Source: Neptunicoccus cionae
GTDB taxonomy: Bacteria > Pseudomonadota > Alphaproteobacteria > Rhodobacterales > Rhodobacteraceae
Direction: 5' to 3'
Assembly: GCF_014643735.1 (NCBI RefSeq)
Contig: NZ_BMKA01000002.1
Span: 682,001-746,000, forward strand
DNA length: 64,000 bases
The notes under the pieces are model-generated. The model did not search any database and was not told the DNA's origin. It saw only the letters and a list, made by a program, of their open reading frames with translations. Shown here one piece after another: positions 35,833-55,233 of the stretch. How positions within the stretch are numbered: the stretch's first letter is position 1; every line of letters begins with the position of its first letter. Both the position numbers and the translations under genes were made by a program.

Positions 35833-35839
35833 CCAATCA

Positions 35840-35868
35840 CGGGTGCCAGCGTCACACGTTGGCACCCG
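35840..35868 (+). promoter_or_regulatory. strong hairpin between dctP and dctQ
   Basis: CGGGTGCCA (35840-35848) pairs perfectly with TGGCACCCG (35860-35868), and the centre adds a short CGT/ACG pairing. No T tract follows. It probably protects the binding-protein mRNA from 3' decay or lowers read-through to the permease genes. Confidence 0.65.
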
Positions 35869-35892
35869 CGCAAAATTTAGGGGGGAAATCGT

Positions 35893-36429
35893 ATGGTTCA
35901 TGTGGGGAAAGCCCTGTCAGGACTGACAAAGATCGGATCGTTGCTCGGGACGATATGTATCGTTTTGATGATGCTGCATGTGACAGCGGATGTGGTGGGC
36001 AGGTATCTGTTTAACGCGCCACTGACCGGTACGATTGTGATCGTTGGCCATTACTACATGATTATCGTCGTGTTTATCGCCCTTGGGGTTGCCGAAGAAA
36101 AGAACTCCCACATCTCGGTAGAGTTCCTGACAGATATGATGCCCCGCACATTTCAGGGCTGGCTGTCGGTGTTTTCCGGCCTCTTCACCCTGTTCGTTTT
36201 CGGCCTGCTGGCCATCAGCGGGTTTACCGAAGCGATGAAAAAAACCAACTCCGGCGCTTCGATGGAGCAAGGATCAAGCCTGATCGCAATCTGGCCGAGC
36301 TATTGGGCTATCCCGCTGGGTGCAGGTCTGATCTGCCTGATCGCCGCCTATAAAGTGCTGGTTCGGGTGTTCAAAACACCCAACGGCCTTCACGAAACAC
36401 TCGAAGATGATGAGATAGTCCATGACTGA
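35893..36429 (+). CDS. TRAP transporter small permease, DctQ type
   Basis: 178 residues with four membrane helices. The conserved first helix contains DVVGRYLFNAPLTGT, typical of DctQ. GGGGGGA lies just upstream of the ATG. It overlaps the large permease gene by 8 bases, as these subunits often do. It works with DctM in the inner membrane. Confidence 0.92.
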   Translation: MVHVGKALSGLTKIGSLLGTICIVLMMLHVTADVVGRYLFNAPLTGTIVIVGHYYMIIVVFIALGVAEEKNSHISVEFLTDMMPRTFQGWLSVFSGLFTLFVFGLLAISGFTEAMKKTNSGASMEQGSSLIAIWPSYWAIPLGAGLICLIAAYKVLVRVFKTPNGLHETLEDDEIVHD

Positions 36430-37729: not shown

Positions 37730-37749
37730 ACCTGTAAGGACAACACGAT

Positions 37750-39339: not shown

Positions 39340-39500
39340 GTTTGAGTGGTTCCATTGGGGAGGACTTACTGCCGATATTTTATGGGAGCAAATGCGAGTG
39401 GTACAAAGGCGGCTTTTTGCTGCGGATCAAGGATCCGGATCAGAAAATGCCAAAAACGAGTAAAGATACGATGGTAATATACTGGAAATTGACCCTTTAA
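39336..39500 (+). CDS. possible small ORF, 54 residues
   Basis: An ATG overlapping the ligase stop (ATGA) opens a 54-codon frame ending TAA at 39498-39500, with GYLLR-like segment CEWYKGGFLLRIKDPDQ and MVIYWKLTL at the end. No family is recognised and the base composition becomes A+T-rich within it. It could be a coupled small gene or the remnant of a larger one cut by the following low-GC island. Confidence 0.25.
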   Translation: MSLSGSIGEDLLPIFYGSKCEWYKGGFLLRIKDPDQKMPKTSKDTMVIYWKLTL

Positions 39501-39655
39501 TAACCTTTTTGTGATTATCATCCATCAAGTGTTGCCTTGCGTTGGCCTTGATTGCGACACATTGAGGCTACATATTTTATAGATGACCATGAAAAACTGT
39601 GTATAGTGTCCTTAAAAACGTGGGACCGGCACGGGGTTGTCGATGGGAGAAAACA

Positions 39656-39946
39656 ATGACCATACCAACTACGTTGAATAAAGTTGTTGAAGAACAAATT
39701 ACTAGAGTAATTCGCGAAAAATTTAATCTGGATTCAAACTCAGTAATTGAAGTTTCATCTATCGAAGTCGATCAGAACGAACATAAAATTCGAATTGAAG
39801 TCTTGATCACCACTACTGAACGACCCGAAGAACTGGCCAGAGGGTACTTTGGATTAACAGGAAAGGTTCGCGATGCTTTGGGTGCTGATTGGTCCGGTTT
39901 TTTTCCAGTGATCACACCACAAATAAACTCAGGCATGCATGCCTGA
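39656..39946 (+). CDS. small protein upstream of a HEPN gene
   Basis: 96 residues from the ATG at 39656 with GGGAG upstream; the frame to 39599 has no such site. It is A+T-rich compared with neighbours. Predicted order by eye is helix (VVEEQITRVIREKF), two strands (IEVSSIEV, HKIRIEVLITT), helix (ELARGYFGLTGKVRDAL), strand (FFPVITPQI). I do not recognise a family. It overlaps the HEPN gene by 8 bases, so the pair is translationally coupled. This layout resembles toxin-antitoxin or minimal nucleotidyltransferase/HEPN pairs, but the nucleotidyltransferase motif GSxxxG(T) is absent. Confidence 0.7.
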   Translation: MTIPTTLNKVVEEQITRVIREKFNLDSNSVIEVSSIEVDQNEHKIRIEVLITTTERPEELARGYFGLTGKVRDALGADWSGFFPVITPQINSGMHA

Positions 39947-40445
39947 CGCGAAACTTGCGGATGGCCATCTGGCGGTTGCCAAACGTTTGGCTAGTACAAA
40001 AAGGCCATCACAAGCCGAAATTCGACGTTCAATAAGTTCCAGTTATTATGCATTGTTCCATGCCTTAGCGCGAACTTGTGCGAATTCGCTGGTTGGAAGA
40101 ACTCCAAGTCAGCGGCCAAACAAAGCTTGGGTGGAAGTTTATCGCGGTTTAACTCATGGCATTTGTCGGAAAGCATGTGAAGATGCCCATAAAGTTGCAT
40201 TCCCAGACTGTATTCAAAAATTTGCAGACGAATTTCATCAGCTGCAAGAGCTTCGTCACAAAGCCGACTATGATCCTGATATCAAATTCAGCAAAGCAGA
40301 TGCACAAACGATGCACGTGAATGCCCAGATGAGCATGGAAAGTCTGAGATCCGCCAGCAACAATGACAAGAAGGCCTTTTCGGCCTGGGTACTGATTTCG
40401 TCACAGGGTGCAAAAAACGCACGTAAGACAAACAACGCAAATTAA
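39939..40445 (+). CDS. HEPN-domain protein
   Basis: 168 residues, A+T-rich. The segment RRSISSSYYALFHALARTCA is the usual first long helix of HEPN proteins (SxYYAxFHA), and LRHKADYDPD follows in the place of the second conserved region. The RNase motif Rx4-6H is not clear, so nuclease activity is uncertain. HEPN proteins act in RNA cleavage, toxin-antitoxin and phage-defence modules. The partner here is the unknown 96-residue protein. The cassette differs in composition from its surroundings and is a likely acquisition. Confidence 0.75.
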   Translation: MPDAKLADGHLAVAKRLASTKRPSQAEIRRSISSSYYALFHALARTCANSLVGRTPSQRPNKAWVEVYRGLTHGICRKACEDAHKVAFPDCIQKFADEFHQLQELRHKADYDPDIKFSKADAQTMHVNAQMSMESLRSASNNDKKAFSAWVLISSQGAKNARKTNNAN

Positions 40446-40974
40446 TGTGGCAAATCCTTGCCGATCACAATCCCAACTTGTATTAATGTGTTGTGCCCAT
40501 CGCACGCCCTCTTAGAACCAAGTGCCTCCTATAGGTGGACCGCATGAGGTGATCCGCGAGTGTCGAACTGTATTTCGACGTTAGCTATAGAGGTGCTTTT
40601 TATGGCATACTGTACTTGGCCTATGCCGGTAAGTGTTCGCGCTTATCTGAGATTTAGGTTTGGCAAGTGGGAAACTGTCGTTTCCCACTGCCGTTCGACT
40701 CCTTCGCGGTAAGGGAATACAGGCCCTGCGAAGGTGATGTGTGATAAAGCGATGGGCACAACCATAATTAGTACCACCCAACCTTCAACTAAATTGATCG
40801 CCGCCACATTGAGCTTCGACAAATCGAGTCAAAATTACAACAATTTTCGTACGAGCTTGGTCGGATACTGAGGTACGATGGTCAATATCGAATTAGGGGC
40901 TGCATGAGAAGATACCGATGGTGCAAAGGAAAGTTCACCTTGAACCGTTCGCATAACTTAACACCACCCCAACC
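40446..40974. other. A+T-richer intergenic stretch after the HEPN cassette
   Basis: 529 bases without a convincing gene. It contains two adjacent inverted repeats (separate entry). No IS terminal repeats, integrase fragment or tRNA gene was seen. The left end of the island is equally unmarked, so the mode of acquisition is unknown. Confidence 0.5.
40662..40734. repeat. two tandem hairpin-forming inverted repeats
   Basis: AGTGGGAAAC (40666-40675) pairs perfectly with GTTTCCCACT (40680-40689) around the tetraloop TGTC, and GGC/GCC extends it past one bulged A. Twelve bases on, CCTTCGC (40701-40707) pairs with GCGAAGG (40728-40734), with an inner AGGG/CCCT. There is no T tract. It could be a structured RNA, a protein-binding site, or a relic of a mobile element. 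Confidence 0.5.
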
Positions 40975-41718
40975 TCACTTCATTCTGTTCTCTTTCGAAA
41001 TGGACGGTTCGTCCTGTAGCCCTGCAATCTGGATGCCGCGCCAGAAGTCTTGGATGTGGCGGTGGGCCCAGTTTCGGGCGCGCTCGGGGTCTTTGGCTTC
41101 GATTGCGTCTACGATCTGGCTGTGGGCGACGATCTGGCGTTCGATGGCTTGGGGGACGGAGGGGGTGATCTGGATGAACCCCTGATAGAGCAGCAGTGTC
41201 AGCGGTTCGCGCACGAGGCAGAGCACGCGGTTTTGGCTCATCTCGGCCACTTGGGTGTGGAACAGCGTATCAAGCCGCGTGGTTTCGGCCACGTCATCCT
41301 TGGCGGCCACCAGACGGGCGTGGATGTCTTTCAACTCGGCCAGCGCCTCGGGGGGGCCTTGCCGTGCGGCCAGTTCTGCGGCCAGTGGTTCGGTTTCCAG
41401 CGCCACCTGCCACAGCTCTCGGAAGGTGACATTCATCAGCACCATCGCACGGCTGGACCGACTGGCGAGCTTGTCGGTTTGGGGCAATGCCACTTCCAGA
41501 CGGCGGGGGGTGGGACGGTGGACCAACCCTTCGCTTTCCAGCTGGCGCAGTCCTTCGCGCACGGTGGATCGGGTGACGCCGAACAGTTGCGCCAGTTCCA
41601 CTTCGCCGGGCAGACGCTCGCCGGGTTTCAGGGTGCCCTGCATGATCTGCGCTTCGATTTCATCGGCAAACTGGCGATAGGCGTAATTCACCTTTAGATG
41701 CTGGCTGCGCAAACTCAT
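40975..41718 (-). CDS. GntR-family regulator with FCD domain
   Basis: 247 residues. The winged helix (about 15-75) reads LFGVTRSTVREGLRQLESEGLV, and the FCD ligand domain has the Asp/His metal-site residues in DTLFHTQVAE, AHSQIV and AHRHIQDF. FCD regulators usually repress catabolic genes and respond to an acid or acyl-CoA. It is divergent from the ACAD gene, with an inverted-repeat operator candidate at 41934 between them and related copies at 32.5-32.8 kb. Confidence 0.9.
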   Translation of the reverse strand: MSLRSQHLKVNYAYRQFADEIEAQIMQGTLKPGERLPGEVELAQLFGVTRSTVREGLRQLESEGLVHRPTPRRLEVALPQTDKLASRSSRAMVLMNVTFRELWQVALETEPLAAELAARQGPPEALAELKDIHARLVAAKDDVAETTRLDTLFHTQVAEMSQNRVLCLVREPLTLLLYQGFIQITPSVPQAIERQIVAHSQIVDAIEAKDPERARNWAHRHIQDFWRGIQIAGLQDEPSISKENRMK

Positions 41719-41933
41719 GTCTTCAACTCCAATGCTCGCAGGCGATGGGCCAACCTGACCGTGCCGCTGCTTCGATTAAACAGCAAGCCGCCCAGTTTGT
41801 GAACAGGAAGGCGGCCCGTGGGTGGGTGGTTTACCTTTCGTCAAGACAGTGCCGATGCCCCGTTTCTGACCCTGCGTCCCAAGCGGCAGAAGCGTGTTTC
41901 GGCTTCCCATCCCAATTCCTCTATGTTACACCA

Positions 41934-41960
41934 TTAGTGTATGACAATACGTCACTAAAT
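41934..41960. promoter_or_regulatory. FCD-regulon operator candidate, copy 3 (best copy)
   Basis: TTAGTG (41934-41939) and CACTAA (41953-41958) form a perfect 6-bp inverted repeat with 13 bases between, containing TATGACAATACG. It lies 85 bases before the ACAD start and 216 before the divergent GntR start. Two related copies occur upstream of the kinase and crotonase genes. Confidence 0.6.
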
Positions 41961-42044
41961 TTTCAATTTCAATGGGGCAATCCAGTGCAGCGCCGCGCGT
42001 TCCGCAGACGCAGACCTGCCCCGCCCTAAACGAGCGAGCCTGAT

Positions 42045-43343
42045 ATGATCCCTGAAAAATCCGATAAAACCCGCGCTCTCGAAGCCCGCCTGAAGGACTT
42101 CATGGAGCAGCACATCTATCCGAACGAGCCCCGCTTCTATCGTGAATCCGAGGATATCGGTCCTTGGGGGGTGCATCCGATCGTAGAGGAACTGAAAACC
42201 GTCGCGAAAGAGGCCGGTCTGTGGAATCTGTTCCTTCCCGACTCTGACAGGGGCGCGGGGCTGAACAATCTGGAATACGCCGCATTGTGCGAAATCATGG
42301 GGCGCAGCCATCTCGCACCGGAAGTGTTCAACTGCTCTGCGCCGGATACCGGCAATATGGAGGTGCTGGAACGCTATGGCACGCAAGACCACAAACAGCA
42401 GTGGCTCGAGCCGCTTTTGAGGGGTGAAATCCGTTCCAGCTTTGCGATGACCGAACCGGCTGTTGCTTCTTCGGACGCGCGTAATATCGAAAGCGCGATT
42501 GTGCGGGACGGCGACGATTATGTGATTAACGGGCACAAATGGTACACCACAGGGGCCACCGATCCGCGCTGTAAGGTAATCATCTTCATGGGTAAATCAG
42601 ACCCGAACGCGGAAACCTACCGTCAGCAATCCATGATCCTTGTACCAAAGGACACACCGGGTGTGACGGTCAAACGTTCCATACCCGTGTTCGGCTTTTA
42701 TGGTGTGCCGGATCGCGCATCCGAAGTGATCTTTGAAAACGTCCGCGTGCCAGCGTCCAATATGCTGCTGGGGGAAGGCTGCGGTTTTGAAATCGCACAG
42801 GGGCGCCTAGGGCCCGGCCGCATCCATCACTGTATGCGCCTGATCGGTCTGGCGGAACGCACGCTTGAAAAAATGTGCGCCCGCGCCGCAGAGCGCACCA
42901 CATTTGGAAAGGTGTTGTCCGAGCAATCCGTCACCCGCGAGCGGATTGCCCAATCCCGCATCCTGATCGAGCAGTCCCGTCTGCTGACTCTGCGCGCGGC
43001 CCATATGATGGACACCGTTGGCAATAAAGAGGCCAAGGCCGAGATTGCCATGATCAAAGTTGCCGTGCCCAATATGGCCTGTCAGGTCATCGATTGGGCC
43101 ATCCAGCTGTTCGGCGGTGGCGGCACAAGCAATGATTTCGGACTGGCAACCGCCTATGCCACTGCGCGGATGCTGCGGCTTGCGGATGGTCCGGATGAGG
43201 TCCACCGCGACCAGATCGCGCGGTTGGAGTATAAAAAACAGGCCAAAGCGGCGGCGGATCGCCCCAACGTGAAACTGTCGGATCAGGAACCCGCAGTCAG
43301 CAATGTCGCACTGGGGCTGACACTAGAAAGTGACCCGCGTTAG
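42045..43343 (+). CDS. acyl-CoA dehydrogenase, ACAD10/11 type
   Basis: 432 residues. Landmarks of the ACAD11-like group are [21 protein letters not shown]-type text (here [15 protein letters not shown], then [10 protein letters not shown]), [17 protein letters not shown] and the C-terminal [11 protein letters not shown]. In ACAD10/11 and LvaC systems this enzyme acts on phosphorylated 4-hydroxyacyl-CoA made by the APH-like kinase. That kinase is encoded apart at 31458 but shares the operator motif. The FAD-binding and acyl-binding regions look complete. The 3' end overlaps the convergent DeoR gene by 4 bases. Confidence 0.9.
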
Positions 43344-44104
43344 CCCTGTTCTGCGATCCGCAGTTCCAGACCTTTTAGCAGGCCCTCAAAGGCAGTGTCG
43401 GGCCGACGGTCCGTCACGACAAAATCGCCAGACTTTAGCAAGGGCTGGCGCACTGCAGGGCGGCGGTCCTGCGGTGCGAACTTGGACTGATCCACCGCCA
43501 TAATTACCTTGCCAGCATTGCGCAGCATGGCGGTCGCGATCTCTACTTCGCATTGTTCATGCACCAGAAAGCCCTTGACCGCATCCACCATCGAGGCGGA
43601 CAAAAGCGCGTAATCCACCTGCATCCGTTCGATCACATCAAAGGCGGAGCGATCAAAGGCTGCCCCGTCATGATCGCGCAACTGGGTTCCGGCCATGAAC
43701 ACCTTATTGCCCGGAATAATCGCCAGCGTGCTGGCCACGAAGGCCGAATTTGTAACGACCGTCAGTTCCTTTCGCGCCCGCAATGCCTGCGCGATAAACC
43801 CCGAGGTAGAGCCTGTGTCGATGGCTAGGCTCGCCCCGTCCGCAATGATCTCGGCGGCTTCCTTGGCGATGGCCACTTTTGCAGCACGGTTCAGATTCAT
43901 CCGCGCCAGATACGGCGGGTCGGTGGCAATCCGGTTGGAGACCAGCGCACCGTGGACTTTATCCAGACGCCCGCTCGCCACCAGAGGCTGGGTGACACGG
44001 CGGATGGTCTGGTCGGACACGCCAAGCATTTGCGAAAGCTCCACAACCGAGAGCGTTCCGCGCATATCAACCGCGTGTAGAATCTGTGCTTCATATTTCG
44101 ACAT
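43340..44104 (-). CDS. DeoR-family transcriptional regulator
   Basis: 254 residues from the ATG at 44104, with AGGTG upstream; a GTG at 44113 is the alternative. N-terminal HTH ([20 protein letters not shown]) and a C-terminal sensor domain of the phosphosugar-isomerase-like type ([26 protein letters not shown]). DeoR proteins are typically repressors released by phosphorylated metabolites, which fits the two kinases in this region. It is divergent from the FAD/GcvT gene, with strong TCAACAAAA repeats between. Confidence 0.88.
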
Positions 44105-44166
44105 TTGCGACACCTATACCCGGAAACCAGCCAAACGATAGCCCGCACTTGTTGATTTTGCGGAGT

Positions 44167-44209
44167 ATATCAACAAAAATCAACAAAATCGTTGCCATGA
44201 TGTTGATAT
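44167..44209. promoter_or_regulatory. DeoR operator candidate, copy 1
   Basis: The 23 bases at 44167-44189 consist of ATATCAACAAAA followed by ATCAACAAAAT. Their exact reverse complement occurs at 47749-47771 upstream of the binding-protein gene. TGTTGATAT at 44201-44209 adds an inverted half-site. It sits between the divergent DeoR and FAD/GcvT genes. Confidence 0.75.
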
Positions 44210-44250: not shown

Positions 44251-46668
44251 ATGGCACAACACGCAGCGAAACATCTGATCATTGGCGGGGGCATTCTGGG
44301 CTGCTCTATCGCCTATCACCTCACCCGTATGGGAGAGAAAAACGTGGTGCTGCTGGAACGGGCCGATCTGACCGAAGGGGCCACATGGCACGCGGCGGGA
44401 CTGGTGGGGCAGTTGCGCTCTTCACGCAATACCACGCGGATGCTGAAGAAATCGGTCGAAATGTACGACCGGTTGCAGAACGAAGAAGGGATGCAGTTCG
44501 ACTGGAAGAAGACCGGATCCCTGCGTCTGGCGGCCACCAAGGAACGGATGCTGGAAGCAAAGCGGCTGGCCACAATGGCGCGCAGTTTTGATCTGGAAAT
44601 GCAGATCATTAGCCCGTCAGAGGCCAAGGACCTGTTCCCGCTGATCGACGAAAAAGGTCTGGAAGGCGCGGCGTTTATTCCGTCTGACGGTTACGTCGAC
44701 CCTGCCTCGCTGTGTCAGGCCGTGGCCGGGGCTGCGCGCAAACAGGGTGCCGATATTCGCCAGAATGTAGAGGTTCTGGACTTTAACATCACAGACGGGC
44801 GGATCACTTCTGTTGAAACCACCCAAGGGCGTTGGGAGGCGGATACGATCATCCTCGCCACAGGGATGTGGAGCCGCGAAATCGCCGCGAAACTTGGCAT
44901 CAGGGTCCCGGCCTGTGCGGTGGAACATCAGTATATCATCACCGAATCCACCGGCAGCGAAATCGGCCATTACCCGACCCTGCGCGATCCTGAACGGTTG
45001 GTTTATTACAAACCGGATGTGGGCGGACGGCTGGTGGTCGGCGGTTATGAAGAAGACACGCTGCCCTTTGGCAACAAGGGTATTCCGGGCAAGTTCGTGC
45101 GCCAGTTGCTGCCCGAAAATCTGGACCGTTTCCTGCCACTTGCGGAACTGGCGGGCAAGGTCACGCCCATCATCAACGAAGTCGGCATTAGGCAGGTGAT
45201 CAACGGGCCGATCCCCTATTCTGCGGACGGTGATTTTGTGATGGGCTGGCAGCCGGATTACAAAAACCTGATGATGGCCACGGGGTTTCTCTACGGGATT
45301 GCAGCAGGGGGCGGTGCCGGAGAGATGATCGCGGAATGGGTCGTGGACGGGCAACCCTCGCTTGATCTGTGGCCGCTGGATGTGCGCCGCTTCGGGCCCC
45401 ATCACGGCACCCGCGCCTTTATGTATCCTCGCGCTGTCGAACATTACGCCCACCATTACAAGATGCGCTATCCGGGGCAAGAACATGAAACAGCCCGCCA
45501 GTTGCGCCTGTCCCCGCTCTATCAAAAGCTGAAAGATCAGGGGGCGGTTTACGGATCTAAGAACGGCTGGGAGCGTCCGTTGTGGTTCGCCCCTGAAGGC
45601 GTGCCAGCAGTGGATCAATTGGACTTTCTCAACCCCGGCTGGAAGCAATATGCAGCGCAGGAACATGCAGCGGTACGCGAGCGTGTGGCCCTGATCGACC
45701 AGACCAGTTTTGCCAAGTTTGAAATCCTCGGACGAGGAGCGCTGGAACTGCTTCAAAGGCTCTGTGTCTCTAATATGGACAAGCCCGTTGGCAGCGTGAT
45801 CTACACCCAGATGTGCAACGCCAAGGGCGGGACAGAGGCGGACGTCACCTTTATCCGGCTCGGCGCGGAACGGTTCTATATGGTCACAGGCTCGGGCTTT
45901 GGGGTGCATGACAGCAACTGGATCAAGCGGCACCTGCCCGATGACGGCTCGGTCCACTTGATCGAAGTCACAAGCGGGATTGCGGTGGTGAATATCGTTG
46001 GCCCGAAGGCCCGCGATGTACTGGCTGCCGCCTCCGAAAGCGATGTGTCAGGCGATGCCATCCCGTTTTCTACTGCCAAGGAGATCATCATCGGCGCAGC
46101 CCCTGTGCGTGCAGCACGGATCGGATACGTCGGGGAGCTGGGATATGAGTTGCACATCCCAACCGAGTTTGCGGCCCATGTCTATGACACCCTTTGGCAG
46201 GCAGGTCAGAACCACGGCATTGCAAATGTGGGCTACCGCGCGATTGAAAGCCTGCGGATGGAGAAGGGCTATGTCTACTGGTCGGGGGATGTGACGCCCG
46301 ACTATACCCCGATTGAAGCGGGTCTCGGCTTTCGGGTGCATCTGAAATCGAAGGGTGATTTCATCGGCCGCCAAGTGCTGGAAGCACAGAAAACCAAAGG
46401 CGTTTCACGGCAGCTTTGTACCTTTGTCACTGATGAAAACCTGCCGTTAACAGGCGGTGAGGCGATCCTGATTGGCGAAGAACTGGTCTCGCTCGCGACT
46501 TCTGTGGGCTTTGGCCATACTGTGGGGCAGACGATCTTGCGAGGGTATCTCGATCAGGAACACTGGGACCGTCAAGACTTCACGCTAGAGGTTTTTGGCG
46601 ATCGCCATGCCATCCGGCAAACCGACGGACCGCTTTATGATCCCACCAACAGTGCTTTAAAAGGATAA
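44251..46668 (+). CDS. FAD-dependent dehydrogenase with GcvT domain (dimethylglycine/sarcosine dehydrogenase type) 1
   Basis: 805 residues from the ATG at 44251 (MAQHAAKHLIIGGGILGC); the longer frame from 44086 covers the operator and is rejected. FAD fingerprint GGGILG and the covalent-flavin His in ATWHAAGLVGQLRS at the N-terminus; DAO fold to about 370; aminomethyltransferase (GcvT) fold from about 430 to the end. Such enzymes oxidise N-methyl groups and pass the one-carbon unit to tetrahydrofolate. It is followed 6 bases on by a kinase gene. The true substrate is not determined. Confidence 0.9.
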   Translation: MAQHAAKHLIIGGGILGCSIAYHLTRMGEKNVVLLERADLTEGATWHAAGLVGQLRSSRNTTRMLKKSVEMYDRLQNEEGMQFDWKKTGSLRLAATKERMLEAKRLATMARSFDLEMQIISPSEAKDLFPLIDEKGLEGAAFIPSDGYVDPASLCQAVAGAARKQGADIRQNVEVLDFNITDGRITSVETTQGRWEADTIILATGMWSREIAAKLGIRVPACAVEHQYIITESTGSEIGHYPTLRDPERLVYYKPDVGGRLVVGGYEEDTLPFGNKGIPGKFVRQLLPENLDRFLPLAELAGKVTPIINEVGIRQVINGPIPYSADGDFVMGWQPDYKNLMMATGFLYGIAAGGGAGEMIAEWVVDGQPSLDLWPLDVRRFGPHHGTRAFMYPRAVEHYAHHYKMRYPGQEHETARQLRLSPLYQKLKDQGAVYGSKNGWERPLWFAPEGVPAVDQLDFLNPGWKQYAAQEHAAVRERVALIDQTSFAKFEILGRGALELLQRLCVSNMDKPVGSVIYTQMCNAKGGTEADVTFIRLGAERFYMVTGSGFGVHDSNWIKRHLPDDGSVHLIEVTSGIAVVNIVGPKARDVLAAASESDVSGDAIPFSTAKEIIIGAAPVRAARIGYVGELGYELHIPTEFAAHVYDTLWQAGQNHGIANVGYRAIESLRMEKGYVYWSGDVTPDYTPIEAGLGFRVHLKSKGDFIGRQVLEAQKTKGVSRQLCTFVTDENLPLTGGEAILIGEELVSLATSVGFGHTVGQTILRGYLDQEHWDRQDFTLEVFGDRHAIRQTDGPLYDPTNSALKG

Positions 46669-46674
46669 CGGCTT

Positions 46675-47601
46675 ATGACAGATCATTCGGACACAGTTCT
46701 GCAAGCCCTGCGACAGGCCCCTGCCTTTGCCGATGTGCAACAGGTGGACAGTATCACGCGGCTCGGCGGGATGACCAATCTGGTCTATCGAGTGGAATTT
46801 CAAGGCACCTCGGTCATTGTGCGGATACCGGGCGAAGGCACGGAAGATTACATCGATCGCGCGGTAGAGGATCACAACGCGCGGGCGGCTGCGCGGGCCG
46901 GTGTTTCACCGGAGGTGCTTTTTGCCCGCCCCGAAACCGGCCTGATGATTTCGCGCACAGTGCCCGATATTGAAACCATGACCCCCGCCCTGTTTCAAAG
47001 CCGCGCCGGATCACCGGCACGGGCGGGCAAAGCGCTGGCAAAACTGCATGGGTCGGGGGAGCAGTTTCAGTTCCGCTTCGAACTGTTCTCCATGATCGAC
47101 GATTACCTTAAAATCCTTGCGACCAAAGACGTAAATCTGCCGGAAGGCTACCACGATGTGGTTGCCGCCGCTGATCCCGTGAAACAGGCGCTCGCCTCTG
47201 CTGTTCTGCCGCTGGCGCCGTGCCACTGCGATCCTCTGTGTGAGAATTTTCTCGATGATGGCACGATCATGTGGATCGTTGATTGGGAATACTCCGGCAT
47301 GAATGATCCGCTCTGGGATGTGGGCGATCTGTCGGTAGAGGCGGGTTTGAACGAGGCGCAGGACGCTGAGCTGATGGAAGCCTATTTCGGCCGCCCGCCT
47401 ACCGCCGCCGAAACCGGCCGTATGGTGATTTATAAAGCCATGTGCGATCTGCTCTGGACGCTTTGGGGGTTGATCCAGCACGCAGATGACAATCCGGCCG
47501 AAGATTTCTGGGCCTACGCCACAGAACGGTTCGCGCGGTGCAAGGCGCTGATGCAGGACCCTGCCTTTGGAGCGCATGTGGCCGCTGTCAAAAAGGGCTA
47601 A
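46675..47601 (+). CDS. choline-kinase-like phosphotransferase 1
   Basis: 308 residues. The catalytic loop reads HCDPLCENFL (Asp and Asn in place, HCD instead of the common HND), and the metal-binding DWEYSGMNDPLWDVGDLSVEA is typical of choline/ethanolamine kinases. It likely phosphorylates an amino alcohol or related amine. The tight link to the FAD/GcvT gene suggests either phosphorylation before demethylation or of the demethylated product. It is paralogous to the gene at 51917. Confidence 0.85.
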   Translation: MTDHSDTVLQALRQAPAFADVQQVDSITRLGGMTNLVYRVEFQGTSVIVRIPGEGTEDYIDRAVEDHNARAAARAGVSPEVLFARPETGLMISRTVPDIETMTPALFQSRAGSPARAGKALAKLHGSGEQFQFRFELFSMIDDYLKILATKDVNLPEGYHDVVAAADPVKQALASAVLPLAPCHCDPLCENFLDDGTIMWIVDWEYSGMNDPLWDVGDLSVEAGLNEAQDAELMEAYFGRPPTAAETGRMVIYKAMCDLLWTLWGLIQHADDNPAEDFWAYATERFARCKALMQDPAFGAHVAAVKKG

Positions 47602-47748
47602 CCGTTCACCAGTTCCAACGATGCGCAGTGCGGGGCCGTCAATCACACCGGCCACGACACGCTTTGCGTCTGCATCATTAAAGCCGTTTCCAAGGCATCC
47701 CGATCAGCACATTTGCAATTCCTGACGTAAAACTACATTTAATACGCA

Positions 47749-47771
47749 ATTTTGTTGATTTTTGTTGATAT
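47749..47771. promoter_or_regulatory. DeoR operator candidate, copy 2
   Basis: ATTTTGTTGATT followed by TTTGTTGATAT is the perfect 23-base reverse complement of 44167-44189. It is about 100 bases upstream of the binding-protein start at 47874, where a repressor could block the ABC operon promoter. Confidence 0.75.
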
Positions 47772-47873
47772 TGATTTCGAATCTGATTGTATAGTTGGAT
47801 CATTACCGGCGATCCGCGGGCGTTTGACCCGATCCAAGACCGGACGCCCCGATCCAACACAGGGAGTTTTAGA

Positions 47874-48806
47874 ATGAAGTATATTTCCGTAGCGGCGGCC
47901 GCGTTTATGGCTGTAACACCGGCGCTGGCACAAGAATCCTCGGACCCGATCAAGCTGACACTGCACGACTGGTCCGGACAGCTCATCACCACCACGCTGA
48001 TGGGCGAGGTGCTGGAAGAGGCTGGTTATAATGTCGAATATGTTCAGGCCGATTACATCGCGCAATTTGCAGGGCTGAAAACCGGCGACCTGCATGTGGC
48101 AATGGAACTGTGGGAAACAACAGCCCGCGAAGCGATGGACGAAGCCTTTGCCACAGGAAACGTGGTTAATCTGGGTGAAACCGGCATGATGGCGATCGAG
48201 GAATGGTGGTATCCTTCTTATATGGAGGAAAAATGCCCCGGCCTGCCAAATTGGGAAGCACTGAAAGATTGCGCCGATGCTTTCTCCACCGCAGAAACAG
48301 CGCCGATGGGCCGCTATCTGGGTGGTCCGGTCACGTGGGGCGGGTTTGATGACGAACGGGTTGAAGCACTGGAACTGGATTTCGAAGTGGTTCACGCTGG
48401 CACCGATGCGGCCCTGTTTGCCGAACTGGAAGCCGCGTATCAGCGCAAGGACCCGATCATGCTCTGGCTTTATTCCCCCCATTGGGCACCCGCCAAGTTT
48501 GATGGCAAATATGTGGAATTTCCAGCCTATTCCCCCGAATGCTACAATGATCCCTCTGTCGGCGTGAACCCCGATGCAGCCTATGACTGTGGCAAGCCGA
48601 CCGGCCCGATCTGGAAAGCTGCATGGGCCGGTGTTGCGGAAAAATGGCCAAACGCCGAGAAAGCAATCAAGAACTTCAAAATCTCCAACGAAGACATGGG
48701 CGCAATGGTGGCCGATGTGGACCTGAATGGAAAATCCGTTGATGAAGTTGTTGCGGCTTGGATGACCGAGAACAAAGACGCTTGGTCCTCTTGGATCGTT
48801 AAGTAA
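47874..48806 (+). CDS. betaine-type ABC transporter binding protein (ProX/OpuAC family)
   Basis: 310 residues from ATG 47874 with AGGGAG upstream; the longer frame is not needed. Signal peptide MKYISVAAAAFMAVTPALAQ. The OpuAC fold has LHDWSGQLITTTLMGEVL and several Trp residues (ELWETT, EEWWYP, VTWGG, SPHWAP) that could make an aromatic cage for a quaternary or methylated amine. Relatives carry glycine betaine, choline or trimethylamine N-oxide. The substrate here is unknown; the enzymes around it suggest an N-methylated compound. Confidence 0.88.
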   Translation: MKYISVAAAAFMAVTPALAQESSDPIKLTLHDWSGQLITTTLMGEVLEEAGYNVEYVQADYIAQFAGLKTGDLHVAMELWETTAREAMDEAFATGNVVNLGETGMMAIEEWWYPSYMEEKCPGLPNWEALKDCADAFSTAETAPMGRYLGGPVTWGGFDDERVEALELDFEVVHAGTDAALFAELEAAYQRKDPIMLWLYSPHWAPAKFDGKYVEFPAYSPECYNDPSVGVNPDAAYDCGKPTGPIWKAAWAGVAEKWPNAEKAIKNFKISNEDMGAMVADVDLNGKSVDEVVAAWMTENKDAWSSWIVK

Positions 48807-48819
48807 TCCTACCTTTGAG

Positions 48820-48846
48820 CGGGCGCGTCATACAAAGGCGCGCCCG
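48820..48846 (+). promoter_or_regulatory. strong hairpin after the binding-protein gene
   Basis: CGGGCGCG (48820-48827) pairs perfectly with CGCGCCCG (48839-48846) across 11 bases, 13 bases after the stop codon. No T tract follows. It probably raises the amount of binding-protein message relative to ATPase and permease message. Confidence 0.65.
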
Positions 48847-48923
48847 TTCACGACCCCGCCCCCATTAGCACGACACATGCTCCGGCCGCGCGCCCCGCCT
48901 GCGCCCGCCGACCCGAGGACCGA

Positions 48924-49937
48924 ATGAATCAATCAGTCATATTAGAATGCCGCGACGTCTGGAAACTTTACGGACCAAACGCCGGAACATTCCTGAAAAA
49001 CACGCCTGTTCCCAAGAAAGGCGATCTCGGTCGGGCCGGACTGATCGGCGCAGTACGGGCCGCAAATGTGCAGATTTTCAAGGGTGAGATATTTGTGATC
49101 ATGGGGCTGTCAGGCTCTGGCAAATCGACACTGGTGCGCTGCCTGTCGCGTCTTGTGGAGCCGACAGCGGGTGAAATTCACTTTGAGGGCGAAAACCTTC
49201 TGAACAAATCCGACAAGGAATTGATCCAGATCCGGCGCAGCAAGATGGGCATGGTGTTCCAGCAGTTCGCGCTGCTGCCCCATCTGACCGTTCTGGAAAA
49301 CGCCGCCTTTCCGCTGGACGTGCAGGGCGTTCCCAAGGCCGAAAGACTGGCACGTGCGCAAGAAGTTGTGGAACTGGTCGGGCTAAAAGGGCGTGAAGGT
49401 TACTACCCGCGTGAACTGTCGGGTGGCCAGCAACAACGGGTCGGCATCGCAAGATCGCTCGCGGTGGAGCCGGACTTGTGGTTTCTGGATGAACCGTTTT
49501 CCGCACTCGACCCGCTGATCCGGCGTGAAATGCAGGACGAGTTCATCCGCCTGCAAAACATGCTGCACAAGACCATTGTCTTCATCACCCATGATTTTGA
49601 CGAAGCAATCCGCCTTGCAGATCGTATCGCTGTTATGAAGGATGGCGCGATCCAGCAGGTGGCCAAGCCCGAGGAGCTGGTGCTGAACCCCGCCACCGAC
49701 TATGTGGCAGAATTCACCCGCCATGTGAACCGCGCCAAAGTCATCACCGCAGCCGCGCTCGCCGAGCCATTGAGCGGCGACAGTTTTTCCGGCACCGTTC
49801 CCGCCAGTGCCACAATCGAAAGCATCGGGGATCGTGTTGAGGCCGCAGAGCACCCGTTTCACGTGGAACAGGATGGTAAGATCATCGGACAAATCACCCG
49901 CAGTGCCGTGATTGACGTTCTGGTGGGGCGGCGCTGA
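48924..49937 (+). CDS. betaine-type ABC transporter ATPase (ProV type)
   Basis: 337 residues. Walker A GLSGSGKSTLVR, signature [15 protein letters not shown], Walker B LWFLDEPFSALDP, and VFITHDFDEA. The extended C-terminus beyond about 270 has the short partial CBS-like region of ProV. The N-terminus has the ProV-type lead VWKLYGPNAGTFL. It ends at the base before the permease start. Confidence 0.92.
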   Translation: MNQSVILECRDVWKLYGPNAGTFLKNTPVPKKGDLGRAGLIGAVRAANVQIFKGEIFVIMGLSGSGKSTLVRCLSRLVEPTAGEIHFEGENLLNKSDKELIQIRRSKMGMVFQQFALLPHLTVLENAAFPLDVQGVPKAERLARAQEVVELVGLKGREGYYPRELSGGQQQRVGIARSLAVEPDLWFLDEPFSALDPLIRREMQDEFIRLQNMLHKTIVFITHDFDEAIRLADRIAVMKDGAIQQVAKPEELVLNPATDYVAEFTRHVNRAKVITAAALAEPLSGDSFSGTVPASATIESIGDRVEAAEHPFHVEQDGKIIGQITRSAVIDVLVGRR

Positions 49938-51920
49938 ATGGGACGCTGGCTTACATCCGGCAGGGTCTTCTGGCTTGGCCTGTTTGCGGTGACATGGGTG
50001 TTGTCGCAATTTTCCTTCCAGATCTACAAGGCGCTCGATGCCCGCTGGATCATCCGCTACCCCAAAAAATGGCAACTGCCGCTGGAAGACAGCATCAGCA
50101 GTTTCCTCGATTGGCTGGTGGAATCCGCGAACGTCTATTTCTTCACCTTCCGCGAATTCACCCGCGCGATTGCAGCCCTTCTGGAAGCGCCCTACCAGTT
50201 CTTGCGAAACCTTCTGATCGAAGGCTTCAATACGGGATACGGCGACAGTGCTGTGCAACTTGCACCGTCGCTCGGCTGGGTCGCTGTGGTGGTCTGCGCG
50301 ATTGCCATTGGACATTATGCTCGCAACTGGGCGCTGGCGGCCCTTGTCGGGGCCTGTTTCCTATACCTTGCAGTGTTCGGGCAATGGCACAGTGCGATGA
50401 TCACGCTGGCTTCTGTTCTGATCGCAGTGCCAATCGGGGCTGTGGGCGGGTTGTTTCTGGGGATCGCGGCTTACCGCGCGCCTTGGTTTAACCGCTTGCT
50501 GCAACCGGTTCTGGACCTGATGCAGACGGTTCCGGTCTTTGCCTATCTGGTGCCGATCCTGATCCTGTTCGGCTTTGGCCCTGTTGCCGCACTTGTGGCC
50601 ACCGTGGTCTACGCCATGCCGCCGATGGTGCGGATTACAATACTGTCGCTGCATTCCGTCCCCGAAGAAATACAAGAAGCCGGTCGCATGGCAGGCTGCA
50701 CCAAGCGGCAGATCATGTGGAAGGTTCTGGTGCCATCGGCCACGCCTTCGCTGATGGTGGGGGTCAATCAGGTGATTATGCTCTCGCTCAATATGGTGAT
50801 TATCGCCTCGATGATCGGCGCGGGTGGCCTTGGGTTTGACGTACTGGCCTCGTTGCGGCGGCTCGACATTGGCGCGGGGATTGAGGCGGGTCTCGCCATC
50901 GTCGTCATGGCCATTGCGCTCGACCGTGCCAGTCAGGCCTTTGCCGAACGCAGCCAGCGAAGCCTGCCCGAAGGCAACCTGCTGCAACGCCACCCGTGGA
51001 GCAGCACGGTGCTGCTGGTCATCCTCGCCAATCTGGTTCTGGGCCGGTTCATCCCTGCCCTGCAAACCTACCCTGACAGTCTGACTCTGACCACCGGCCC
51101 GTTCTGGAGCGACGCGATGGAGTGGGTCAACGTCAACTTTTTTGATACATTCGAGGCGATCAAAGTCGTTGTGTTGCAAGGGCTTCTGCTGCCAGTCAAA
51201 AAGTTCTTCAGCGGAATTCCATGGGCTTGGGGCATCATCGCCACCGGACTGATTTCATGGCGTATTGGCGGCTGGAAGCTGGGTATTATGGCGGCACTGA
51301 TGATGGCCTTCATCGCGGCCAGCGGGCTTTGGGGCAAGGCGATGATTACCATCTACCTGTGCGGCGTGTCGGTGCTGATCGCCACTGTAATCGGTATTCC
51401 GCTTGGCATTTGGGCCGCCGAGAAACCGAACGCGGGGCGTGTGATCCTCGGGCTGATGGACACGCTGCAAACCTTGCCGAGCTTTGTCTATCTGATCCCT
51501 GTAGTGATGCTGTTCCGCGTTGGAGATTTCAGCGCGATGATTGCGGTGGTGCTGTACGCGCTGGCCCCTGCGGTACGCTATGCCGCCCACGGGCTGCGCG
51601 ATGTGCCCGAACAGATGATCGAGGCCGGCGTCATGTCCGGCTGCACCAAACGTCAGCTGCTGTGGCGCGTGAAGCTGCCACTGGCCACGCCGCAACTGCT
51701 GTTGGGGTTGAACCAGACTATCATGCTGGCGATTTCCATGCTGGTGATCACCGCTTTGGTCGGCACCCGTGATCTGGGCCAAGAGGTCTATATCGCCCTG
51801 ACCAAAGCCAACGCAGGTCAGGGCATTGTGGCCGGTCTGTCCGTGGCCTTCATCGCCATCGTCGCGGACCGGATCGTGAACGCACTGGCCGAAGGACAAC
51901 GCAGGAGGTTGGGCTTATGA
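49938..51920 (+). CDS. double ABC permease, two ProW domains fused
   Basis: 660 residues, twice a normal ProW. Two coupling loops are visible: IQEAGRMAGCTKRQIMWKV (about residue 240) and IEAGVMSGCTKRQLLWRV (about 560), each in a six-helix permease core, with an N-terminal hydrophobic extension. A single polypeptide therefore forms both membrane halves. It starts directly after the ATPase gene and overlaps the kinase by 4 bases. Fused ProW permeases are also known in importers for trimethylamine N-oxide and related amines, so substrate is open. Confidence 0.9.
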   Translation: MGRWLTSGRVFWLGLFAVTWVLSQFSFQIYKALDARWIIRYPKKWQLPLEDSISSFLDWLVESANVYFFTFREFTRAIAALLEAPYQFLRNLLIEGFNTGYGDSAVQLAPSLGWVAVVVCAIAIGHYARNWALAALVGACFLYLAVFGQWHSAMITLASVLIAVPIGAVGGLFLGIAAYRAPWFNRLLQPVLDLMQTVPVFAYLVPILILFGFGPVAALVATVVYAMPPMVRITILSLHSVPEEIQEAGRMAGCTKRQIMWKVLVPSATPSLMVGVNQVIMLSLNMVIIASMIGAGGLGFDVLASLRRLDIGAGIEAGLAIVVMAIALDRASQAFAERSQRSLPEGNLLQRHPWSSTVLLVILANLVLGRFIPALQTYPDSLTLTTGPFWSDAMEWVNVNFFDTFEAIKVVVLQGLLLPVKKFFSGIPWAWGIIATGLISWRIGGWKLGIMAALMMAFIAASGLWGKAMITIYLCGVSVLIATVIGIPLGIWAAEKPNAGRVILGLMDTLQTLPSFVYLIPVVMLFRVGDFSAMIAVVLYALAPAVRYAAHGLRDVPEQMIEAGVMSGCTKRQLLWRVKLPLATPQLLLGLNQTIMLAISMLVITALVGTRDLGQEVYIALTKANAGQGIVAGLSVAFIAIVADRIVNALAEGQRRRLGL

Positions 51921-52792
51921 CAGAAAACGCGATTGAACGGACAGCCGCCCTGTCCTGCTTTAGTGACCCGCAGGATATAAAACCGCTGAGTGGCGGGATC
52001 ACGAATGTGAACCTGACAGTCACCGATCAGGGCCGCAAATACGTGGTGCGAATCGGGGCAGACATCGAAGAACACGGGGTGATGCGCTGGAACGAACTGG
52101 CACTGTCCCAAGCGGCTGCCAAAGGCGGATTTTCACCCGAAGTGATCCACCATGAAGACGGCGTTCTGGTGCTGGAGTATCTGGACGCTTCGACCTTTGC
52201 TGAAGAAGACGTGCGCAAGCCTGAAAACCTGCACCGGATCGTCGCGCTGATCTACGACGTACATACACAAATGGGCCAGCACCTGATCAAACCGGCCCTT
52301 GCCTTCTGGCCTTATCAGGTCAACCGGACCTATATCACCCGCCTGCTGGCCGCCGGTTCAAAATATCAGGGCATGTTCGACAGGTTGACCAAACAAAGCG
52401 AGATGCTGGAACAAGCCACCGGACCGGTCGACCTCGTGATCGGTCATAACGATCTGCTGGCGGCAAATATTCTGGATGACGGGGAAAAGCTGTGGCTGAT
52501 CGACTGGGAATACGGCGGCTTTAACGCGCCTTTGTTTGATCTGGCGGGGTTGGCCTCTAACAACGGGCTGTCTGAGGCGCAGGAGCGGCTGATGCTGGAG
52601 CAATATTTCGCCACCTCCCCCGATCAGCACTGGCGCCCCTATCAGGCAATGAAATGCGCGTCTTTGATGCGTGAAACGCTCTGGTCCATGACCTCGGAAA
52701 TCCATTCGGCGCTGGACTTTGACTATGCGCAATACACCACCGAAAACCTCGACAGGCTGAACGCAGCGCTGTCCGACTTTGCAAACACGTAA
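51917..52792 (+). CDS. choline-kinase-like phosphotransferase 2
   Basis: 291 residues. Catalytic loop IGHNDLLAANIL and metal loop LIDWEYGGFNAPLFDLAGLAS are closer to standard choline kinase than the first paralogue. It overlaps the permease by 4 bases and precedes the second FAD/GcvT gene by 8 bases. So each FAD/GcvT gene in this region has its own kinase neighbour. Confidence 0.87.
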   Translation: MTENAIERTAALSCFSDPQDIKPLSGGITNVNLTVTDQGRKYVVRIGADIEEHGVMRWNELALSQAAAKGGFSPEVIHHEDGVLVLEYLDASTFAEEDVRKPENLHRIVALIYDVHTQMGQHLIKPALAFWPYQVNRTYITRLLAAGSKYQGMFDRLTKQSEMLEQATGPVDLVIGHNDLLAANILDDGEKLWLIDWEYGGFNAPLFDLAGLASNNGLSEAQERLMLEQYFATSPDQHWRPYQAMKCASLMRETLWSMTSEIHSALDFDYAQYTTENLDRLNAALSDFANT

Positions 52793-52800
52793 GGCAAGAT

Positions 52801-55233
52801 ATGACACTCCCTTCCTCTTCGAAAATTATTGTCGTCGGTGGCGGCATCATCGGATGCTCTACCGCGTACCATCTGGCGCAAATGGGTCAGGAAGTGCTGC
52901 TGCTGGAAAAAGCGCAGCTGACCTCCGGTTCCACATGGCACGCGGCCGGATTGGTGGGGCAATTGCGCTCTAACGCGAATATCACGCGATTGCTGGGCTA
53001 TTCCATTGATCTGTACAAAAATCTTGAGGCCGAGACAGGCCTTGCAACCGGCTGGAAGATGAACGGCGGGCTGCGGCTGGCGTGTAATCAGGAACGCTGG
53101 ACCGAGGTAAAGCGTCAGGCCACCACCGCCCATAGTTTCGGGCTGGATATGCAGCTTTTGACCCCGCAAGAGACACAAGACCTGTGGCCGCTGATGGACA
53201 TCGGTGATGTGGTCGGCGCGGCCTTCCTGCCGACCGACGGGCAGGCCAATCCCGCCGACATCACGCAGGCACTGGCAAAGGGCGCGCGTGCCAAGGGCGC
53301 GAAACTGGTGGAACATGCACCCGTAACGGAAATTCTGACGGAAGGCGGCAAGATCACCGGCGTGCGTACTCCGCAAGGGGATGTGACCTGCGAAAAGCTG
53401 GTGCTGTGTTGCGGTCAATGGACCCGAGAGCTGGCCAAAACCGTTGGCGTAACAGTGCCGCTGGTATCGGTCGAGCATCAGTATATGGTCACCGAACCCT
53501 TTGACGTGCCGTCCGACCTGCCCACCCTGCGCGATCCTGACCGGCTGACCTACTACAAAGAAGAAGTGGGCGGTCTGGTTATGGGCGGCTACGAACCAAA
53601 CGGCATCCCGTGGGCGCAAAATGGCATCCCCGACCCTTTTGACTTCCAACTGCTGGAGTCCAATTTTGATCACTTCGAACAGTTGGTCGAACTCGCCCTG
53701 CCCCGTGTGCCTGCTTTGCAAACAGCGGGAATTAAACAGCTGATCAACGGGCCGGAAAGCTTCACACCGGATGGGAACTTCATCCTTGGCGAAGCACCTG
53801 AGATGGCCAACGTCTTTATCGGCGCAGGCTTCAACGCCTTTGGCATCGCTTCGGGCGGTGGGGCAGGTATGGCGCTGGCGGAATGGGTCGCCAACGGTGC
53901 GCCACCCTATGACATGTGGCCGGTGGACATCCGCCGCTTTGGCCGCCCCCACGGGGATGAAGACTGGGTCCGCACCCGCACGCTGGAAGCTTACGGTAAG
54001 CATTACACGATGGCCTGGCCGTCCGAAGAACACGACAGTGGCCGCCCGTGCCGCCGCTCTCCGCTCTATGACACTCTGCTAAACAGCGGTGCTGTCTTTG
54101 GTGAAAAACTGGGCTGGGAACGCCCCAACTGGTTTGCCGAAGAAGGCGAGGAAGCCCGTGACATCTACACTTTCGAACGCCCCAACTGGCACGCTGCCGT
54201 AGGGCGCGAACACAAGGCTGCGCGGGAAACAGCGGTGCTGTTCGACCAGACCTCCTTTGCAAAATTCATCCTGAAAGGTCCGGACGCAGAGGCCGCCCTT
54301 AGCTGGATCGCTTCGAACCGCGTGGACAAGCCGGTGGGCAGCATCATTTACACCCAGATGCTGAACGACAAAGGCGGGATCGAGTGTGATCTGACCTGCG
54401 TGCGCCTCGCGCTGGACGAATATTACATCGTCACCGGCACAGGCTATGCCACCCATGATTTCGACTGGATCGCCCGCAACATTCCCGAAGGCATGAACGC
54501 GCAACTGGTGGATGTAACGTCCTCCAATGCAGTGCTGTCGCTGTTTGGCCCCAAAGCGCGCGAGATCCTGTCTGCCTGCACCCGCGACGACCTAAGCAAC
54601 GAAGCCTTCCCCTTCGGGCAGTCCCGAAAGATCGGGATCGCAGGCTGTCCGGTACTGGCGCTGCGGATCACTTATGTGGGCGAATTGGGCTGGGAATTGC
54701 ACCTGCCAGTGGAATACGCCCTGACTGTTTATGAAGCGATCCACAGGGCGGGCAAGGATCACGGGCTGCGCAACGCAGGCTACCGGGCGATTGAAACGCT
54801 GCGCTTGGAAAAAGGCTACCGCGCGTGGAGCTCTGACATCGGGCCGGATCACACACCGGATGAAGCGGGGCTTGGCTGGGCGGTGAAGATGAAATCCAAC
54901 ATCCCATTCAAAGGCCGCGAGGCAGTGCAGGCCCAGCGCGAAACCGGCAAGAAAAAGATCATGGCCACCTTCACCTGCGACGGGGATGTGATCTTGTCGG
55001 GACGTGAAACCATCTACCGGAACGGCGAAACCTGCGGCTGGCTGTCGTCCGCCGGTTACGGCCACACTTTGGGGCAAAGCATCGGCATGGGCTATGTGCG
55101 CAGCGACACACCGATCGACCGCGCCTACGTGCTTTCCGGCGAATACGAGCTGGAAGTAGCCACAGAGAGAGTGCCCGCGAAGATCACGCTGTCCCCGCTA
55201 TTCGATCCTAAAATGGAGCGGGTCAAAGCCTGA
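52801..55233 (+). CDS. FAD-dependent dehydrogenase with GcvT domain 2
   Basis: 810 residues, paralogue of the gene at 44251. FAD fingerprint VVGGGIIGCS and covalent-flavin His in STWHAAGLVGQLRS; GcvT-type C-terminal half with YRAIETLRLEKGYRAWSSDIGPDHTPDEAG-type substrate/folate region (RAIETLRLEKGYRAWSSD). The first paralogue has LRMEKGYVYWSGDVTPDYTP at the same place, so the substrate pocket may differ. It is last in the ABC-kinase-dehydrogenase operon that begins at 47874. Confidence 0.9.
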   Translation: MTLPSSSKIIVVGGGIIGCSTAYHLAQMGQEVLLLEKAQLTSGSTWHAAGLVGQLRSNANITRLLGYSIDLYKNLEAETGLATGWKMNGGLRLACNQERWTEVKRQATTAHSFGLDMQLLTPQETQDLWPLMDIGDVVGAAFLPTDGQANPADITQALAKGARAKGAKLVEHAPVTEILTEGGKITGVRTPQGDVTCEKLVLCCGQWTRELAKTVGVTVPLVSVEHQYMVTEPFDVPSDLPTLRDPDRLTYYKEEVGGLVMGGYEPNGIPWAQNGIPDPFDFQLLESNFDHFEQLVELALPRVPALQTAGIKQLINGPESFTPDGNFILGEAPEMANVFIGAGFNAFGIASGGGAGMALAEWVANGAPPYDMWPVDIRRFGRPHGDEDWVRTRTLEAYGKHYTMAWPSEEHDSGRPCRRSPLYDTLLNSGAVFGEKLGWERPNWFAEEGEEARDIYTFERPNWHAAVGREHKAARETAVLFDQTSFAKFILKGPDAEAALSWIASNRVDKPVGSIIYTQMLNDKGGIECDLTCVRLALDEYYIVTGTGYATHDFDWIARNIPEGMNAQLVDVTSSNAVLSLFGPKAREILSACTRDDLSNEAFPFGQSRKIGIAGCPVLALRITYVGELGWELHLPVEYALTVYEAIHRAGKDHGLRNAGYRAIETLRLEKGYRAWSSDIGPDHTPDEAGLGWAVKMKSNIPFKGREAVQAQRETGKKKIMATFTCDGDVILSGRETIYRNGETCGWLSSAGYGHTLGQSIGMGYVRSDTPIDRAYVLSGEYELEVATERVPAKITLSPLFDPKMERVKA

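Follow-up and report, generated by a model that had tools for sequence, protein, structure and literature searches.

A Neptunicoccus locus coupling choline-kinase-like genes to dimethylglycine-dehydrogenase-type genes, and its possible role in the use of N-methylated ethanolamines via phosphorylated intermediates

The 64,000-nucleotide stretch of the Neptunicoccus cionae genome analysed here (contig NZ_BMKA01000002.1, positions 682,001 to 746,000; hereafter the window) contains a module in which two choline/ethanolamine-kinase-like genes (K1 and K2) are each paired with a gene for a flavin adenine dinucleotide (FAD)-dependent amine dehydrogenase (F1 and F2) around a single ATP-binding cassette (ABC) importer (Table 1). 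A reverse-strand DeoR-type regulator gene is followed by F1, K1, ProX, ProV, a fused double ProW, K2 and F2, all on the forward strand and all intact open reading frames, as an earlier sequence-only reading of this DNA had described. F1 and K1 are separated by 6 bp and K2 and F2 by 8 bp, while the K2 start overlaps the permease stop by 4 bp; the module is probably expressed as two transcripts, F1-K1 and ProX-ProV-ProWW-K2-F2. Most likely the module serves to import a choline-like compound, phosphorylate it and demethylate it as a nutrient source, a function suggested by the observations set out below.

Table 1. Features of the module, with positions in the window
Feature	Position	Strand	Basis
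DeoR/GlpR-type regulator, divergent from F1	43340..44113	-	Pfam DeoRC 4.5e-34, HTH_DeoR
23-bp element ATATCAACAAAAATCAACAAAAT, proposed DeoR operator upstream of F1	44167..44189	+	identical inverted copy at 47749-47771
F1, FAD-dependent amine dehydrogenase fused to GcvT-like folate domain	44251..46668	+	Pfam DAO, FAO_M, GCV_T, GCV_T_C; K1-linked clade
K1, choline/ethanolamine-kinase-like (APH superfamily)	46675..47601	+	Pfam Choline_kinase 4.3e-17
23-bp element, copy 2 (inverted), upstream of ProX	47749..47771	-	identical to 44167..44189
ProX, periplasmic binding protein, TmoX relative with altered pocket	47874..48806	+	Pfam OpuAC; best PDB match 4xz6, E 6.9e-78
ProV, ABC importer ATPase	48924..49937	+	TIGR01186 above cut-off
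Fused double ProW permease, 660 amino acids	49938..51920	+	two BPD_transp_1 stretches; TIGR03416 above cut-off
K2, choline/ethanolamine-kinase-like kinase	51917..52792	+	Pfam Choline_kinase 8.5e-21
F2, FAD/GcvT dehydrogenase	52801..55233	+	Pfam DAO, FAO_M, GCV_T, GCV_T_C; best PDB match 5l46, E 4.8e-157; K2-linked clade

The domains of F1 and F2 extend over their full length and are those of the dimethylglycine/sarcosine dehydrogenase family, and the best structural match of F2, again full length, is human dimethylglycine dehydrogenase. Against the trimethylamine N-oxide (TMAO) demethylase model both proteins score far below the cut-off (172.6 and 160.1 bits, respectively; cut-off 1100). K1 and K2 exceed the Pfam gathering scores for PF01633/PF01636 (62.8/56.9 and 75/56.3 bits, respectively, versus 29/23.2). 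The HCDPLCEN and VDWEY stretches, which we take to be the catalytic stretches of the kinase, are intact in K1, and the former is invariant across six orthologs; K2 orthologs were also aligned. The highest NCBIfam score of both kinases is to GntI (NF041256; 145.8 and 155.1 bits), below its cut-off of 357. From the full-length match of F2 it could be argued that F1 and F2 act on imported betaine-type compounds as ordinary dimethylglycine and sarcosine dehydrogenases and that the kinases serve separately, for example in choline phosphorylation for lipid synthesis: the module does combine an importer with demethylases, and kinase and dehydrogenase could have just a regulator in common.

We judge this alternative distinctly unlikely, in the first place on account of the selectivity with which the kinase accompanies F1 and F2. 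A phylogenetic tree of 100 F proteins was built from 87 of 92 matches from 20 genomes, two from two further genomes, nine from six annotated plasmid stretches and the two in the window (four partial matches and G185:C23 were left out). A kinase gene is located within 600 bp of 12 of 12 proteins in the F1 clade and 21 of 22 in the F2 clade versus none of the 66 others, two of which lie closer than 600 bp to the end of the available sequence on one side. The linkage is thus limited to these two clades (33 of 34 members) although the same genomes carry up to nine F paralogs, among them a nearby pair in one genome (G010) that may be the betaine set. The kinase-dehydrogenase coupling proposed in the sequence-only reading is supported by this comparison. 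The sole F2-clade exception (G023, L233) has its K2 just past an inositol-monophosphatase-family gene, and an F2-like protein just outside the clade (G185, L234), with no adjoining kinase, lies between two genes of that family. The same G185 genome encodes an apparent F1-K1 fusion, a single open frame (L138, 6658-9861) that spans both matches and is free of stops between them, which also argues against separate roles. Its F1 has one in-frame stop near the N-terminus, so that the gene may be broken or misread, and the G185 tip in the tree is this incomplete F1 joined to K1 in one frame. At E 1e-90, three genomes without K2 (G080, G094 and G129) have one, one and five F matches; a search of them at E 1e-9 found no kinase. 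Separately, K1 was found with no adjoining F1 beside a divergent class I S-adenosylmethionine-dependent methyltransferase at three loci (L001 14678-16305, L084 and L134 8203-9909).

A genome scan for K2 relatives returned at least 588 matches, of which 80 were kept. F2 is located within 300 bp of K2 on the same strand in 89 of 99 K2 loci, most of which were chosen by their similarity to K2 and some of which are on short contigs, and ProX is within 4.5 kb in 51 of the 99. This K2-F2 arrangement occurs far more often than chance would allow. Of 144 genomes sampled evenly across the class, 14 have K2; F2 adjoins it in 12 of these and ProX in five. K1 is present in seven of the 144, six of which also have K2 (Fisher P 1.8e-6, uncorrected for kinship), so that K2-F2 appears to be the core and K1-F1 an addition to it. 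That K1 rarely occurs without K2 suits an add-on step; the two pairs may or may not perform the two successive demethylations suggested in the sequence-only reading, and either pair might take either methylation state.

The two pairs had been described as duplicated. Their paralogy holds, F1 and F2 being 47% identical and K1 and K2 35% (global alignment) or 29% (tblastn), while a local or recent duplication does not. The F1 and F2 clades are well supported (0.999 and 0.98, respectively) and are separated in the tree by a kinase-free clade. In Ruegeria AD91A and Salipiger abyssi the F1-K1 and K2-F2 halves form separate operons, each with its own DeoR, and in Alisedimentitalea and strain M382 a DeoR-F1-K1 half was seen alone within the 25 kb read. 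Because the pairs are ancient and can occupy separate operons with their own regulators, we conclude from these comparisons that they are old paralogs and that the locus is an assembly of two old modules.

ProX provides a clue to what is imported. Its nearest PDB entry is TmoX (4xz6, 265 bits), whose TMAO pocket consists of seven residues, Trp55, Trp102, Phe106, Glu131, Trp177, Phe220 and Trp222, according to the excerpted text of PMC8918994. We compared 54 ProX proteins from the loci studied, 52 of which have K1 or K2 within 6 kb. In all 54, Trp55, Trp102, Glu131 and Trp177 are retained, while Phe106 is replaced by Gly (48) or Ala (6), Phe220 by Trp and Trp222 by Tyr; the window ProX has Ala, Trp and Tyr at these positions and therefore keeps four of the seven residues rather than the full TMAO pocket. 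According to the same excerpt, the ligands of Pelagibacter TmoX were TMAO and choline, with hardly any binding of betaine, carnitine, trimethylamine or dimethylamine (PMC8918994). A choline-like compound that carries a hydroxyl and exceeds TMAO in size would fit the altered pocket, and carboxylated betaines would fit less well; the retention of Glu131 throughout and the poor betaine binding of Pelagibacter TmoX are further points against ordinary betaine-derived substrates for F1 and F2. The kinship with TmoX would also suit a reading in which an N-oxide such as TMAO is imported and phosphorylated on its N-oxide oxygen before demethylation, as the name of GntI, from guanitoxin synthesis, implies. 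Although GntI gives the best NCBIfam score of both kinases, its cut-off is far from reached, three of the seven TMAO-pocket residues are altered in every ProX, and the neighbouring genes described below are of an ethanolamine type, so that we regard an N-oxide substrate as highly improbable. As a separate observation, plasmid pPABY1 of Salipiger abyssi (L005, 28582-35015) carries a second TmoX-like ProX/ProV/double-ProW importer together with F3, a protein of the aminomethyltransferase type (26-31% identical to F1/F2), between ethanolamine-like genes and DeoR-F1-K1; the equivalents of Phe220 and Trp222 are kept in this importer.

The two halves of the module may have a regulator in common. The window DeoR is 57-58% identical to the DeoR adjoining F1 in Ruegeria and Alisedimentitalea and 38% identical to the Ruegeria DeoR adjoining ProX. 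Scanning 107 loci with K1 or K2 for the 17-base core of the 23-bp element, allowing up to two mismatches, gave 23 matches in 17 loci (the window and 16 others, mainly close relatives) and none in the remaining 90, versus one match in the reversed sequences used as a control. All but one of the matches (22 of 23) fall in the gap preceding F1 or ProX or in the one that separates DeoR from the phosphatase gene found in some relatives, where the copy upstream of ProX mostly lies between phosphatase and ProX. The 23rd (L005, 17165), with two mismatches, is located 74 bp upstream of the N-formylglutamate-amidohydrolase-like gene in the ethanolamine-like set of Salipiger and could be due to chance given the one control match. 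The common element fits a single DeoR regulon covering both halves, with DeoR as the predicted binding protein.

Genes linked to the module in other genomes give clues to the substrate, each from few loci. Two loci have the order DeoR-K2-F2-EutH (L109) and DeoR-K2-F2-EutH-homocysteine methyltransferase (L133). EutH scores above its cut-off in one of 190 genomes of the class (the genome at the centre of that sample) and two of 61 genomes of that genome's order, in both of which it adjoins F2. A homocysteine-methyltransferase-family gene also occurs near K2 in L019. On the Salipiger plasmid the module is followed by electron-transfer flavoprotein (ETF), FolD and PurU genes, as expected for oxidative release of one-carbon (C1) units, and by N-formylglutamate-amidohydrolase-like, glutamine-synthetase-like, aldehyde dehydrogenase and iron alcohol dehydrogenase genes, which from their order and annotation are probably gamma-glutamyl-ethanolamine genes. 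A 1.41-Mb contig of a 1.4-Mb alphaproteobacterial genome has BetA before ProX-ProWW-K2-F2 and ETF genes on the other side. Of the 99 K2 loci, 21 have an inositol-monophosphatase-family phosphatase gene no more than 6 kb from K2, and none was found within 2.5 kb of 64 other F paralogs (flanks of 0-2.5 kb). The best model for these phosphatases is the histidinol-phosphatase TIGR02067 (Ruegeria 247.0, Salipiger 233.6 and Agrobacterium 310.7 bits; cut-off 275.15). Histidinol phosphate is a 2-aminoalkyl phosphate. The links of phosphatases and EutH to the module likewise disfavour an ordinary dehydrogenase pair. Large open reading frames next to K2-F2 in distant genomes were considered as BCCT choline transporters and rejected, since Pfam assigned the ten proteins examined to chemotaxis receptors, leucine synthesis, EutH and others, with no BCCT among them. 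No consistent partner emerged among 30 neighbour proteins from L068, L040, L058, L082, L025, L019, L013, L042 and L052, the homocysteine methyltransferase of L019 excepted.

The best explanation that we can offer, and one that could fall either way, is a phosphorylation-first pathway for N-methylated ethanolamines, of which we infer every chemical step and the exact substrate. It starts from what the sequences display directly, namely the gene content, the specific kinase-F linkage, the common element, the altered ProX pocket and the ethanolamine- or choline-type neighbours in some genomes. The ABC importer would take up a choline-like amine, N,N-dimethylethanolamine, N-methylethanolamine or possibly choline, and K1 or K2 would place a phosphate on its hydroxyl. 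F1 or F2 would then oxidise an N-methyl group of the phospho-compound and hand the carbon to tetrahydrofolate, the phosphate, by chemical analogy, filling the role that the carboxylate has in dimethylglycine or sarcosine. The product, phosphoethanolamine, would in some relatives lose its phosphate through the histidinol-phosphatase-like enzyme, leaving ethanolamine to be used, and one DeoR protein acting at one operator would control both halves. Phosphorylated N-methyl amino alcohols were already the substrates suggested in the sequence-only reading, a suggestion that is more weakly supported, by EutH, the HisN-like phosphatases, the probable ethanolamine set, BetA and the choline-type pocket.

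Several observations weigh against this pathway. Two kinases are unnecessary if one makes the phospho-substrate for both F enzymes, both kinases score below the cut-offs of all NCBIfam kinase models that they matched, and some K2-F2 pairs have no recognised importer alongside. Because Pelagibacter TmoX hardly bound trimethylamine, a tertiary amine, in the excerpted text of PMC8918994, such an amine is not favoured as the ProX ligand. The EutH link comes from two genomes of a single order, and neither such a phosphatase nor any of the tested ethanolamine genes occurs in the 64-kb window. Among the 144 class genomes, there is no enrichment with K2 of the Salipiger-type glutamine-synthetase-like gene (3/14 versus 17/130, P 0.30), of EutB (2/14 versus 12/130, P 0.41) or of either gene (5/14 versus 28/130, P 0.19). 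A high rate of the glutamine-synthetase-like gene (43 of 48 genomes at E 1e-80, from 48 of the 80 kept loci) was set aside as a sampling effect because these genomes were mostly chosen from Rhodobacterales and Rhizobium. A Shinella plasmid was dropped as a second ethanolamine case because the glutamine-synthetase gene beside its module is only 28% identical to that of Salipiger. The lack of a genome-level association with ethanolamine routes, together with the opening of the ProX pocket at Phe106, would also suit a kinase-then-demethylase route for another N-methylated amino or hydroxy compound, such as N-methyl serinol, N-methyl amino sugars or hydroxy-betaine derivatives, and histidinol-phosphatase-like enzymes accept larger amino alcohol phosphates. 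Given that EutH, the probable ethanolamine gene set and BetA adjoin the module in separate loci, we consider such a compound unlikely. Phosphorylation of the substrate is common to the N-methylated ethanolamine pathway, to this variant and to the N-oxide proposal, and we consider it quite probable.

Two further gene sets were observed. The conjugative Agrobacterium plasmid pAoF64/95 (L008, 8944-13623) has a row of genes for DeoR, a Zn-hydrolase, two choline-kinase-like proteins and a HisN-type phosphatase, with EutB and N-formylglutamate amidohydrolase nearby, and no F enzyme is annotated within the 25 kb read; this is perhaps a related phosphorylated amino alcohol route that lacks demethylation. 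Upstream of the module, the window (31458-43343) contains an APH-family kinase (31458-32648), components of a tripartite ATP-independent periplasmic (TRAP) transporter, an AMP-binding ligase, a GntR regulator and an acyl-CoA dehydrogenase (42045-43343), which together resemble a catabolic set of their own.

In the literature searched (titles and abstract openings) we found no description of a pathway that combines a choline-type kinase with a dimethylglycine-dehydrogenase-type enzyme, and the novelty of the arrangement is provisional because of the limited reach of that search. The available portions of papers on transporters, betaine and choline in R. pomeroyi (PMC10130141, PMC12478193, PMC4744692) contain nothing on the module, and dimethylethanolamine is a known substrate of methanogens, as given in part of PMC8547467. 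Demethylation of the dimethylglycine dehydrogenase type is known; the kinase placed before it is apparently new and the module apparently undescribed. The module is widespread among bacteria, and its proposed function is a prediction from sequence evidence that we consider good. If correct, the proposal implies a route of methylated-amine turnover parallel to the oxidation of choline to betaine, in which many genes annotated as "choline kinase" and "dimethylglycine dehydrogenase" belong to one pathway and a carboxylate-type demethylase family has adapted to phosphorylated alcohols through a partner kinase. The K2-type kinase being common (among the 80 kept of the at least 588 relatives, mostly in Alphaproteobacteria and also in Gammaproteobacteria), such a route could matter in the cycling of phospholipid-derived nitrogen. 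A broader form of this proposal, which we regard as doubtful, is a general unrecognised pathway, present also in the 1.4-Mb alphaproteobacterial genome, in which phosphorylated N-methylated ethanolamines would yield C1 units via dimethylglycine-dehydrogenase-type enzymes; in some lineages the linked homocysteine methyltransferase would take the first methyl group, so that choline would be converted to ethanolamine via phospho-intermediates, bypassing glycine betaine.

The module resembles four known systems in part. With dimethylglycine/sarcosine dehydrogenases, F2 shares full-length matches to the human enzyme and to a second structure, presumably that of the rat enzyme, as well as the four Pfam domains and a TWHAAG stretch, which we take to carry the covalent-FAD histidine; unlike them, F1 and F2 belong to two clades whose members each have a choline-kinase-like gene as neighbour, joined at some loci by a phosphatase gene, and the substrate of F1 and F2 is probably phosphorylated. 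K1 and K2 have the Pfam Choline_kinase and APH domains and the catalytic stretches in common with choline kinase and GntI-type APH kinases, but score under every matched NCBIfam kinase cut-off and are genetically coupled to a demethylase. The ethanolamine gamma-glutamylation pathway (EtoX cluster of Phaeobacter MED193), as described in an excerpt of PMC10132767, is like the Salipiger plasmid set in gene order and annotation, the basis of that match rather than sequence, but begins with free ethanolamine, has neither kinase nor demethylase, and was not found in the window. Finally, ProX matches TmoX of the TmoXWV TMAO importers of Ruegeria and Pelagibacter and keeps four pocket residues, but differs in the three substitutions common to all 54 proteins, in the fused double permease and in being accompanied by F1 and F2, far below the TMAO demethylase cut-off.

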